DNA of 64,000 nucleotides. Origin: Rhizobiales bacterium Ga0077537 (GTDB taxonomy: Bacteria; Pseudomonadota; Alphaproteobacteria; Rhizobiales; Hyphomicrobiaceae). Positions 48,700-52,381 of the stretch are shown one piece after another. The stretch lies in contig LNEM01000034.1 of NCBI GenBank assembly GCA_001464955.1, positions 18,558-82,557 of the forward strand. The letters are read 5' to 3'. The first letter of the stretch is position 1; the number at the start of each line of letters is the position of its first letter. Both the position numbers and the translations under genes were made by a program. The notes beneath the pieces are model-generated. The model did not search any database and was not told the DNA's origin. It saw nothing but the letters and a program-made list of their open reading frames with translations.

Positions 48700-48813
48700 G
48701 TGGCGCTTCGGTTGCCCACTTCGCATCCGCGCGCCTGTAGTCGCGCTTCTGTTGCCCACTGCGCAACCGCGCGCCTTTAGTCGCGCTTCTGTTGCCCACT
48801 GCGCAACCGCGCG
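48700..48813. repeat. 40-bp tandem repeat, about 2.9 copies
   Basis: TCGCGCTTCTGTTGCCCACTGCGCAACCGCGCGCCTTTAG, period 40 (CGCTTC at 48704, 48744, 48784). Confidence 0.95.
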
Positions 48814-48953: not shown

Positions 48954-50672
48954 ATGGCATTGCCGCCCGAGACGAGGTTGCCCTTGGCCCGATTGTCCCG
49001 CCCCCTGGACCAACTCTCCCGACGCTACGATGCCGTCATCGTCGGCTCGGGCTATGGCGGTGGGGTGGCGGCGGCACGCCTGGCACGGGCCGGCAAATCG
49101 GTCTGCTTGATCGAGCGCGGCCGCGAGGTGCTGACGGGTCAGTTCCCCACGCGCTTTCCCGACATGCGCAACGAGATGCGCGTGACCGGCCGCACCGGCA
49201 GCTTCGGATCGCCGACCGGGCTTTTCGACGTCAGGCTCGGCGACGACATGCACGTGCTCGTCGGCTCGGGCCTCGGTGGGGGCTCGCTCGTCAATGCCGG
49301 CGTCGCACTCAGGCCCGATCCGCGCGTGTTCCAGGACGGCGTCTGGCCCGGACAGATCACCCAGGATGGCCTTCTCGAAGAGGGCTATCTGCGCGCCACC
49401 CGTTGGCTCCGCCCGGCCCGACATCCGCGAGCGGCCGAGATGACGAAGTTCCAGGCACTGGCGGCAGCCGGCACCGCCATCGGCAAGCCGCCCGTAACGC
49501 CGCCGGTGGCCGTCAGCTTCGAGGCGACCGTCAATCCGGCCGGTATCGCGCAGCCCGCATGCACGCTCTGCGGCGATTGCTGCGGCGGCTGCAACGTCGG
49601 CGCCAAGAACACAGTGGCGCTGACCTATCTGCCCGTCGCCGCACAGCACGGTGCGCACCTGTTCACCGAGCTGCGCGTGTCGCACATCGCGCCAATTGCG
49701 GGCGGCGGCTGGCAGGTGCACGCCGGCCCGACGGCTGGCGGCAGCGGTGCGTCTCGTCTCCTCTGCATCGACGCCGACCTCGTCGTCCTCGCCGCCGGCA
49801 CGCTCGGCACCACCGAGATCCTGCTCCGATCGCAGGCACGCGGGCTCGCCCTCTCGGACCGGCTCGGCCATCGCTTCTCGGCGAACGGCGACATCATCGC
49901 GTTCGGCTACGGCGCCACGGCTCCGGTCAACGGGATCGGCGTCGGGCATCCGGCGAAGATCACGGGGGCTGAGATCGGCGCCTCGGTGACGGGCCAGATC
50001 GACATCGAGGACGCCGCCGACCTCGCCAACGAGATGCGCATCCAGGAGGGCGCGCTGCCGTCGGCGTTCGCGCCCGCGCTGCCGGTGATGTTCGTCCCGA
50101 ACGGGCGGCTCCTCGGCGCACTGCAGGCGCTCGTCAACGGCGTCTACAAGGGGCCGCTCGCCCATCTGCAGACGTTCTTCGCCGTTTCCCACGACAGCGC
50201 CGCGGGACGCTTCACGCTCGACGGCGACCGTCTCGTCCTCTCATGGCCCGGGGCGAAGGACGAGCCCGTCTACGAGCGGCTCGACCGGACGCTCGCCGCC
50301 CTCGTCAGCGCGGCCGGTGGCTCCTATGTCAAAAATCCGCTCGCCGGCAGCGTCATGGGGCACCAGCCCGCCACCGCGCACCCGCTCGGGGGCTGCGGCA
50401 TGGGCCGGGAACGGAGCGACGGCGTGGTCGACCACAAGGGGCAGGTGTTCACCGCGGCCTCGGGCGCCGGCAGCACGGACGTTCACCGGGGTCTTTACGT
50501 CATCGACGGCTCGATCATCCCGCGCTCGCTCGGCGTCAATCCGCTGCTCACCATTACCGCGCTGGCGGAGCGGGCGCTCTTGCACGCGGGGGCCGACCTC
50601 GGGCTCGCCATGGATGATGCGCCGGTCGCGATCGGGCCGGCGCGGCCGCCTCATGTGCCCGCTGCCGGCTGA
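48954..50672 (+). CDS. GMC family oxidoreductase (cholesterol oxidase-like) with Cys-rich motif
   Basis: YDAVIVGSGYGGGVAAARLARAGKSVCLIERG; CTLCGDCCGGCNVGAKN; ATAHPLGGCGMG. Confidence 0.88.
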   Translation: MALPPETRLPLARLSRPLDQLSRRYDAVIVGSGYGGGVAAARLARAGKSVCLIERGREVLTGQFPTRFPDMRNEMRVTGRTGSFGSPTGLFDVRLGDDMHVLVGSGLGGGSLVNAGVALRPDPRVFQDGVWPGQITQDGLLEEGYLRATRWLRPARHPRAAEMTKFQALAAAGTAIGKPPVTPPVAVSFEATVNPAGIAQPACTLCGDCCGGCNVGAKNTVALTYLPVAAQHGAHLFTELRVSHIAPIAGGGWQVHAGPTAGGSGASRLLCIDADLVVLAAGTLGTTEILLRSQARGLALSDRLGHRFSANGDIIAFGYGATAPVNGIGVGHPAKITGAEIGASVTGQIDIEDAADLANEMRIQEGALPSAFAPALPVMFVPNGRLLGALQALVNGVYKGPLAHLQTFFAVSHDSAAGRFTLDGDRLVLSWPGAKDEPVYERLDRTLAALVSAAGGSYVKNPLAGSVMGHQPATAHPLGGCGMGRERSDGVVDHKGQVFTAASGAGSTDVHRGLYVIDGSIIPRSLGVNPLLTITALAERALLHAGADLGLAMDDAPVAIGPARPPHVPAAG

Positions 50673-50701: not shown

Positions 50702-50731
50702 TTGACAGCGCCGCCTCCATGGCCTCATAAG
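50702..50731 (+). promoter_or_regulatory. Candidate sigma-70-type promoter of the argC leader
   Basis: TTGACA (50702-50707), 18-nt spacer, CATAAG (50726-50731); predicted +1 close to the ATG at 50739. Confidence 0.6.
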
Positions 50732-50738
50732 CTCGGCC

Positions 50739-50801
50739 ATGAGCCTTGCACCGCACACCATCGTCCGACGTCGTTGCCGCCTTCCGGCGCGGATGCGATG
50801 A
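50739..50801 (+). CDS. Putative arginine leader peptide (20 aa, 6 Arg)
   Basis: ATG AGC CTT GCA CCG CAC ACC ATC GTC CGA CGT CGT TGC CGC CTT CCG GCG CGG ATG CGA TGA = MSLAPHTIVRRRCRLPARMR. Confidence 0.55.
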   Translation: MSLAPHTIVRRRCRLPARMR

Positions 50802-50831
50802 CGGCTGCCTGAGTGCGACCGACTTCGTATG

Positions 50832-50857
50832 AGCCGCGCCTGGAGCGCGGCTTTTTC
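50832..50857 (+). terminator. Intrinsic terminator/attenuator upstream of argC
   Basis: AGCCGCGC-CTGGA-GCGCGGCT followed by TTTTCATTTTC; 5' arm CCGCGCC (50834-50840) is also the exact complement of GGCGCGG (50786-50792) in the leader ORF. Confidence 0.75.
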
Positions 50858-50908
50858 ATTTTCTGATCCCCCTTCCTCGACTTCCACCGCCAGATCGCGG
50901 AGATCGCC

Positions 50909-51892
50909 ATGACCCAGGCTTCCTCATCCTCCCCCTCGTCCGCCCCCGGCCACAACCGCAGCCGCCCCGCCGTGTTCATCGACGGCGAGGCCGGCACGAC
51001 GGGTCTCGAGATCCGCGACCGGCTGGCGAAGCTGTCCGGCATCGAAGTCAAGTCGATCGCACCGGAGAAGCGGAAGGACCCGGCGGCACGCAAGGACCTG
51101 ATGGCCGAGGTGGACCTCGTCGTGCTCTGCCTGCCCGACGACGCCGCCAAGGAGGCGACCGCACTCGCGGACGGACTTGCGGGTGGCGGGCCCCGGATCG
51201 TCGATGCCTCGACCGCGCACCGGGTGGCCGACGGCTGGGCCTACGGTTTCCCTGAGATGGACAAGGCCCAGACCGCCACTATCCGCGCGTCGCGGCGGGT
51301 CGCCAACCCGGGCTGCTATCCGACCGGAGGCATCGCGCTCATCCGGCCGCTCGTCTCCGCGGGGCTGATGCCGGCCGACTATCCGGTCACGGTCAACGCC
51401 GTGTCGGGCTATTCGGGCGGCGGCAAGGCCATGATCGAGACCTACGACAAGGGCACGGCGCCGCTGTTCGAACTCTACGGGCTCGGGCTCGAGCACAAGC
51501 ACGTGCCTGAGTTGCAGCTCTACTCCGGCCTTTCGCGGCGGCCGATCTTCGTGCCGTCCGTCGGCAACTACTTCAAGGGCATGCTGGTCTCGGTGCCGCT
51601 CCATCTCGACACGTTGCCGGGCAAGCCCTCGGCGCGCGACCTCGAGGCCTGTCTCGAGGCGCACTATGCGGGCTCGCGTCTCGTGAGCGTCGTGAAGGCC
51701 GGCGATCCCTCGGCCAAGGGCGGTCGCCTCGACGCGCTGGCGCTCAACGATACGGACAAGCTGGAGTTGCGCGTCTTCGCCAACGAGGCGCACCGGCAGG
51801 CCGTGCTGGTGGCGCGGCTCGACAACCTCGGCAAGGGGGCTGCCGGCGCGGCGGTGCAGAACATCGGCATCATGCTCGGCGTCGAGACCTGA
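50909..51892 (+). CDS. argC: N-acetyl-gamma-glutamyl-phosphate reductase (short form)
   Basis: [85 protein letters not shown]. Confidence 0.95.
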
Positions 51893-51913: not shown

Positions 51914-52381
51914 ATGTCCGACTTTTCCCTCCGGCGGGCCACGTCCGCCGACGCCGGACTCGTGCGCGCGCTCACGCGTGCTGCCTACGCCATGTGGGTG
52001 CCGGTCGTCGGCCGCGAGCCCCGCCCCATGACGGCCGACTACGAGCGCGCCGTCGTGGAGCACCTGATCGACCTTTGGGAAACCGAGGGTTCGGTTGCGG
52101 CGCTCATCGAGATGGTCCCCGCTCCCGATCATCTCCTGATCGAGAACATCGCAGTTCACCCCGATCGCCATGGCCAGGGCCTCGGCAGCCGTGCCCTGCT
52201 CCACGCAGAGACCGTGGCTCGAGGTCTGGGACTAACGGAAATGCGCCTCTACACGAACGCTCTGATGGACGCGAACATCGCGCTCTACACGCGCCGCGGC
52301 TACCGGGAGGACCGGCGCGAAAACGCCGGCGCCCTCGGCAGCGCGGTCTACATGAGCAAGCGACTTGTCCCCGGACTGTGA
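51914..52381 (+). CDS. GNAT family N-acetyltransferase
   Basis: FSLRRATSADAGLVRALTRAAY; LLIENIAVHPDRHGQGLGSRALLHAETVARGLGLTEMRLYTNALMDANIALYTRRGY. Confidence 0.92.
   Translation: MSDFSLRRATSADAGLVRALTRAAYAMWVPVVGREPRPMTADYERAVVEHLIDLWETEGSVAALIEMVPAPDHLLIENIAVHPDRHGQGLGSRALLHAETVARGLGLTEMRLYTNALMDANIALYTRRGYREDRRENAGALGSAVYMSKRLVPGL

Follow-up and report, generated by a model that had tools for sequence, protein, structure and literature searches.

A putative leaderless arginine attenuator upstream of argC in Hyphomicrobiaceae

The type 2 N-acetyl-gamma-glutamyl-phosphate reductase gene argC was located at 50909-51892 on the + strand of the window, the 64,000-nucleotide stretch of DNA that was analysed, and matched TIGR01851 with 408.7 bits (cut-off 230). 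A GNAT acetyltransferase gene (51914-52381, + strand; PF00583, 52.9 bits) began 21 nt after argC, lay near argC also in genomes G001 and G002, and is probably co-transcribed with it. On the same strand, a GMC oxidoreductase gene ended at 50672, approximately 160 nt upstream of the hairpin that precedes argC. Close to where this gene begins, a hairpin of the form GCGCGCCT(G/T)TAGTCGCGC was present in two almost identical copies 40 bases apart (48729-48746 and 48769-48786). Between the GMC gene and argC lies a leader, on the + strand throughout, which an earlier note on this DNA had read as an arginine transcription attenuator; argC is the gene that it is proposed to regulate.

The promoter, ATG, 20-codon Arg-rich ORF and stop codon were read directly from the sequence and agreed base for base with the positions given earlier. 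The -35 element TTGACA (50702-50707) and the -10 element CATAAG (50726-50731) were separated by an 18-nt spacer, and 7 nt separated CATAAG from an ATG at 50739, the putative transcription start. A strict sigma-70 scan returned no promoter match at the leader because CATAAG lacks the T required at the last position. The ATG opened an apparently leaderless ORF, MSLAPHTIVRRRCRLPARMR (50739-50801, stop TGA at 50799-50801), with six Arg codons (CGA CGT CGT. CGC. CGG. CGA), and the run CGA CGT CGT (codons 10-12, 50766-50774) supplies the candidate control codons. When both strands of the window were scanned for TTGAC, a -10 element and an ATG opening an ORF of 14-30 codons, the leader site was the sole match, compared with 0.025 such sites expected per simulated window. 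The pattern TTGAC-N19-21-CATA-N4-9-ATG occurred once in the whole 4.84-Mb genome, at the leader, and its reversed control pattern was absent.

The terminator and its alternative pairing were likewise present as the earlier note had described them. The intrinsic terminator (50831-50856; 9 bp, loop of 5, T run) was read from the sequence and folded; its hairpin, GAGCCGCGC-CTGGA-GCGCGGCTT, covered 50831-50853 and the T run 50852-50856. Within its 5' arm, CCGCGCC (50834-50840) was exactly complementary to GGCGCGG (50786-50792) in the ORF. Segment 2, formed by the 3' end of the ORF and the stop codon (50786-50803), can pair with segment 1 (50769-50781) or with segment 3 (50825-50840), which was delimited by a fold of 50781-50841 and takes in the greater part of the terminator 5' arm. 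The antiterminator segment of the window folded at -28.4 kcal/mol compared with -19.5 ± 2.7 in shuffles (z = -3.35), and the terminator segment at -20.2 compared with -12.6 ± 2.4 kcal/mol (z = -3.15). A 1:2 hairpin had also been claimed. Its CGCC/GGCG complementarity was present within 50778-50789, and the best pairing, CGTCGTTGC plus CGCC (50769-50781) with GGCG...GCGATGACG (50786-50803), was longer than the four pairs first noted, its 5' side being the Arg codons themselves; the folding of this 1:2 hairpin was no better than that of shuffles. In this leader the terminator was predicted to form with a probability of 0.98 when the ribosome was modelled at the stop codon, and of 0.03 when it was modelled as stalled at codon 10. 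Sequestration of the terminator 5' arm by the ORF end was not above shuffles in this leader taken alone.

The conserved unit consists of TTGAC, a CATA-type -10 element, an ATG at the expected transcription start, a short ORF rich in Arg and a terminator. It preceded argC in each of the three other genomes of the genus, with the peptides MNHLTTSLRRRRCRLRARIR, MRSLPTILRRRRCRLCARIR and MNFHVHSIRRRRSLKVARVR. Searching with a covariance model (strong matches, E at most 3e-12), we found the unit in 25 of 103 Hyphomicrobiaceae genomes, representing 7 genera; a recognisable unit was absent from three quarters of the genomes of the family. When 16 argC leaders from the 7 genera were aligned, TTGAC and the CAT of the -10 element were invariant, and conservation also covered the ATG, the greater part of CGACG, the end of the ORF and the terminator, with the remaining peptide sequence free to vary. 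An unconserved Arg-rich ORF beside a freely varying terminator, which the earlier note had named as evidence against attenuation, was not what the search returned: ORF, leaderless position and terminator were kept together across the genera.

Sixty-five leaders were then described as a set. Because the models used to gather them were themselves derived from such leaders, and because some of the 65 are related to one another, the figures that follow are descriptive and are not independent trials. The ORF was open in all 65, with a length of 16-29 codons. Arg made up 31% of codons in frame, compared with 12.1% and 8.6% in the other two frames and 13.3 ± 0.9% in shuffles. Synonymous Arg codon choice was biased to CGA and CGT; CGA accounted for 145 of the 397 Arg codons in the leaders, whereas four genes of the window used it for 10 of 147, and in 50 of the 65 leaders the first RR dicodon read CGACGY. 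In 64 of the 65, TTGAC began 35-39 nt before the ATG, placing the ATG at the expected transcription start. Shine-Dalgarno sites were mostly absent before the leader ORFs, with a mean anti-Shine-Dalgarno pairing of -2.8 compared with -5.7 before the downstream genes (p = 1.6e-10). A chance ORF was ruled out by the in-frame Arg enrichment, the window scan against simulation and the single genome-wide match.

The stems were compared across leaders as well. Covariation of the terminator (3:4) across 44 leaders exceeded that of all 500 shuffles. Partner swapping weakened both 2:3 (z = -6.6, and -5.3 in a less redundant set of 28) and 3:4 (z = -14.9), showing that both pairings are leader-specific. 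Column by column, the 2:3 core was mostly invariant and its covariation was weak, a level reached by 31 of 500 shuffles. The 1:2 helix did not covary across leaders, and neither it nor the control 1:3 was weakened by swapping; segment 1 was nearly invariant because the same bases code for Arg. Of the claimed 1:2 hairpin, the complementarity thus stood, and neither covariation nor swapping supported it. Before the terminator 3' arm is made, the ORF end mostly held the 5' arm in 62 of 65 leaders, and this sequestration beat shuffles in 57 of 64. In equilibrium folding, only 27 of 65 leaders dropped below a terminator probability of 0.5 when the ribosome was stalled.

We consider it highly probable that the leader is a ribosome-mediated attenuator of the trp/his type, leaderless and responding to charged Arg-tRNA, before argC. 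The earlier reading is supported by the joint conservation, the coding signature, the promoter-ATG spacing, the leader-specific 2:3 and 3:4 pairings and the absence of ArgR from genomes of the order. In the mechanism that we infer, including its start site, translation, stalling and direction of response, the A of the ATG (50739) would be the first transcribed base, and the bare 5' end of the leaderless RNA would be bound by a ribosome. When charged Arg-tRNA is scarce, the ribosome would stall at CGA-CGT-CGT and leave segment 2 free to pair with segment 3; the terminator would then be unable to form and argC would be transcribed. When arginine is plentiful, the ribosome would reach the stop codon and cover segment 2, the 9-bp terminator would form and transcription would stop at approximately 50856. 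Several points count against this model: the 1:2 hairpin is unsupported, column-wise covariation of the 2:3 core is weak, stalling abolishes the terminator at equilibrium in only 27 of the 65 leaders, arm sequestration in this leader taken alone does not exceed shuffles, and three quarters of the family genomes have no recognisable unit. In addition, ribosomes that stalled at Arg codons 18 and 20 would promote termination; Salmonella speF offers a parallel, since the Arg codon adjoining the stop does not act as the sensor there (PMC6386406).

The repressor ArgR (PF02863) was found in none of 121 genomes of the order, the source genome included, while E. coli, B. subtilis and other controls were positive. 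Control by ArgR was accordingly ruled out, as the repressor is not encoded in these 121 genomes; its absence agrees with a published survey (PMC5343134).

The hairpin could instead be, as the earlier note itself had cautioned, the ordinary terminator of the GMC oxidoreductase gene, with argC having its own promoter and the Arg-rich ORF being a GC-driven accident. The same-strand position of the GMC gene, approximately 160 nt upstream, and the frequency of CGN codons in this GC-rich DNA speak for such an arrangement. However, 22 related loci that retain both the leader and argC all lacked a GMC homologue, indicating that the hairpin is not simply a GMC terminator. The in-frame Arg share of the leaders stands against 9-13% expected at this GC, the promoter and ORF are conserved together with the terminator, and the swap test showed terminator and ORF end to be mutually fitted. 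Both cautions are thereby largely answered, and this explanation, largely refuted, is the least probable of those considered. The leader product might also be a conserved micropeptide with a function of its own, or an arrest peptide, responding within the ribosome to free arginine or some other ligand and independent of Arg-tRNA charging. Ligand-sensing arrest peptides exist, and a polybasic run lies at a similar position in many leaders. Apart from the Arg residues, however, peptide sequence and length vary freely, and the CGA/CGT synonymous bias fits the sensing of decoding rate better than an arrest peptide; we regard this as very improbable, if slightly less so than a GMC terminator.

The Arg leader might also act mainly on translation or RNA stability, through access to the argC start site or RNase cleavage, rather than on transcription termination. 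Arg-codon leaders of this kind are known: Salmonella speF orf34 works via RNase G, Rho and translation (PMC6386406), and S. aureus rbfL works via a blocked start site (PMC13009471). Against this, the ORF and argC are separated by a conserved, covarying intrinsic terminator that has a U run, argC has its own Shine-Dalgarno-like site approximately 50 nt past the terminator, and in a search that was not systematic, folding gave no pairing that hides this site. We judge such a route to be very unlikely, although a little less so than an arrest peptide.

Leaders of this type were not confined to argC. Many matches of the family model lay before argD, and others before type-1 argC, GNAT genes and a cupin-LysE operon. 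A second model was applied to 398 genomes of the order. With it, readable leaders preceded type-2 argC in other families; in one genus (G120, G302 and others) they stood upstream of type-1 argC, and in a Bradyrhizobium-like genus upstream of argD. A named strain with such a leader is Bradyrhizobium sp. ARR65, whose model score taken alone is weak (19 bits). Class-wide, 8 of 385 genomes, the source genome counted in, matched at E at most 1e-5; the other 7 matches lay before argC, argD or GNAT genes. The source organism is unnecessary for tests of these predictions, since cultured Hyphomicrobium and Bradyrhizobium carry versions of the leader.

Several individual loci were observed alongside these. 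In the source genus, argD (L277, G000:C30, upstream of argD at 415315; L278; L280) had no Arg leader: a TTGACA...TTATC promoter-like site was followed directly by a strong terminator, with no ORF between, and then by argD. This terminator was GCCGCCGGCCTTGGCGGCTTTTTT in G000 and G002 and similar in G003, and the element could be either an attenuator without leader peptide or a remnant. Before argD at L234 (G012:C56), the TTGACA promoter and the conserved terminator were kept with no readable Arg-rich ORF, possibly a decayed leader. Arg leaders preceded GNAT acetyltransferase genes at L224, L229, L285 and L287, and FMN_bind_2 (PaiB-like) proteins at L269, L272 and L274 in genomes of the order and at L232 (G102:C81), MINALTILTARRRRILAVWADVCV being an example. 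At L218 (G030:C5:885517-885670), the leader MSKPSTIIRRRRRTGRRARAR and a terminator were followed by genes for a cupin and a LysE-type exporter; an exporter of this type induced by Arg shortage would be paradoxical. Leaders for other amino acids were seen as well. An apparently leaderless Thr-rich leader, MNMLGSAASTTTATAYGGSPAGCAR, with a terminator lay upstream of thrS at L237 (G011:C45:2980-3150), and apparently leaderless Cys-codon leaders, MKRMLRQTPPACCAAPIFILS and MRTRLRQIRRSICGIITISS, lay upstream of apparent cysS genes at L240, L241 and L243 (G039:C7, G035:C5, G064:C4); the latter resemble the uORFC-8-2 motif of Rhodobacterales (PMC8632094). Loci L137, L107 and L112 came from metagenome bins labelled Klebsiella pneumoniae or Asaia bogorensis, with a type-2 argC 56-70% identical to that of the window; at least the Klebsiella label looks like a wrong species label.

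We lean slightly towards a broader reading: repeatedly in Hyphomicrobiales, and sporadically elsewhere in the Alphaproteobacteria, the leaderless Arg attenuator would have been copied or have evolved in front of several genes, giving a distributed arginine attenuation regulon in bacteria without ArgR. Its genes would be both kinds of argC, argD, the LysE-type exporter, the FMN-binding (PaiB-like) proteins and acetyltransferases. The short RNAs released at the terminator might in addition function in trans, as is reported for rnTrpL.

No Rfam family was above its gathering cut-off at the window region or at seven related loci; over the leader, SorX matched with 15 bits compared with a cut-off of 46.6. 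A search of mainly open-access literature turned up no report of an Arg attenuator at argC or argD, and priority for such an element is likely. No explanation of arginine control in ArgR-less Alphaproteobacteria was found in that literature, and a leaderless attenuator offers a concrete, testable answer. Arginine would join the amino acids whose synthesis uses attenuation control, and the finding points to leaderless leader peptides as a design used generally in this group.

The leader shares with the enterobacterial trp/his attenuators (Yanofsky type) a leader peptide rich in the pathway amino acid, mutually exclusive 2:3 and 3:4 pairings and an intrinsic terminator; the enterobacterial systems differ in their established 1:2 pause hairpin and in a leader with a Shine-Dalgarno site, whereas the argC leader has no Shine-Dalgarno site and its 1:2 hairpin is unsupported. 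In enterobacteria, arginine is controlled by ArgR. A survey of Actinobacteria gave no RNA element at arginine operons and named T-boxes for arginine in other bacteria (PMC1262725), and a carA leader peptide is mentioned for Pseudomonas aeruginosa, where attenuation is tied to pyrimidines (PMC4997734). Salmonella speF orf34 senses arginine through consecutive Arg codons of a short upstream ORF (PMC6386406), as is proposed for the argC leader, but that leader serves a polyamine gene rather than arginine synthesis, uses the Rho/RNase G/translation route and is not leaderless. S. aureus rbfL (PMC13009471) also senses arginine limitation through a short Arg-codon ORF; there, stalling represses translation of a biofilm regulator, with opposite sign and no terminator. 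Short ORFs with tandem control codons also characterise the uORFC-8-2 cysS motif of Rhodobacterales (PMC8632094), and the leaderless polycysteine ORF attenuators of mycobacteria (Canestrari 2020, cited in PMC13236596); both concern cysteine, different genes and different clades. The nearest working precedent is the leaderless trpL/rnTrpL of S. meliloti (PMC7298713, PMC10117765). Both leaders belong to the same taxonomic order and have tandem control codons and alternative antiterminator and terminator hairpins, and the trpL ORF starts at the first base of the transcript, as is predicted for the argC leader; trpL senses Trp before trpE and was demonstrated experimentally, whereas the argC leader is predicted, from sequence, to do the same for Arg.
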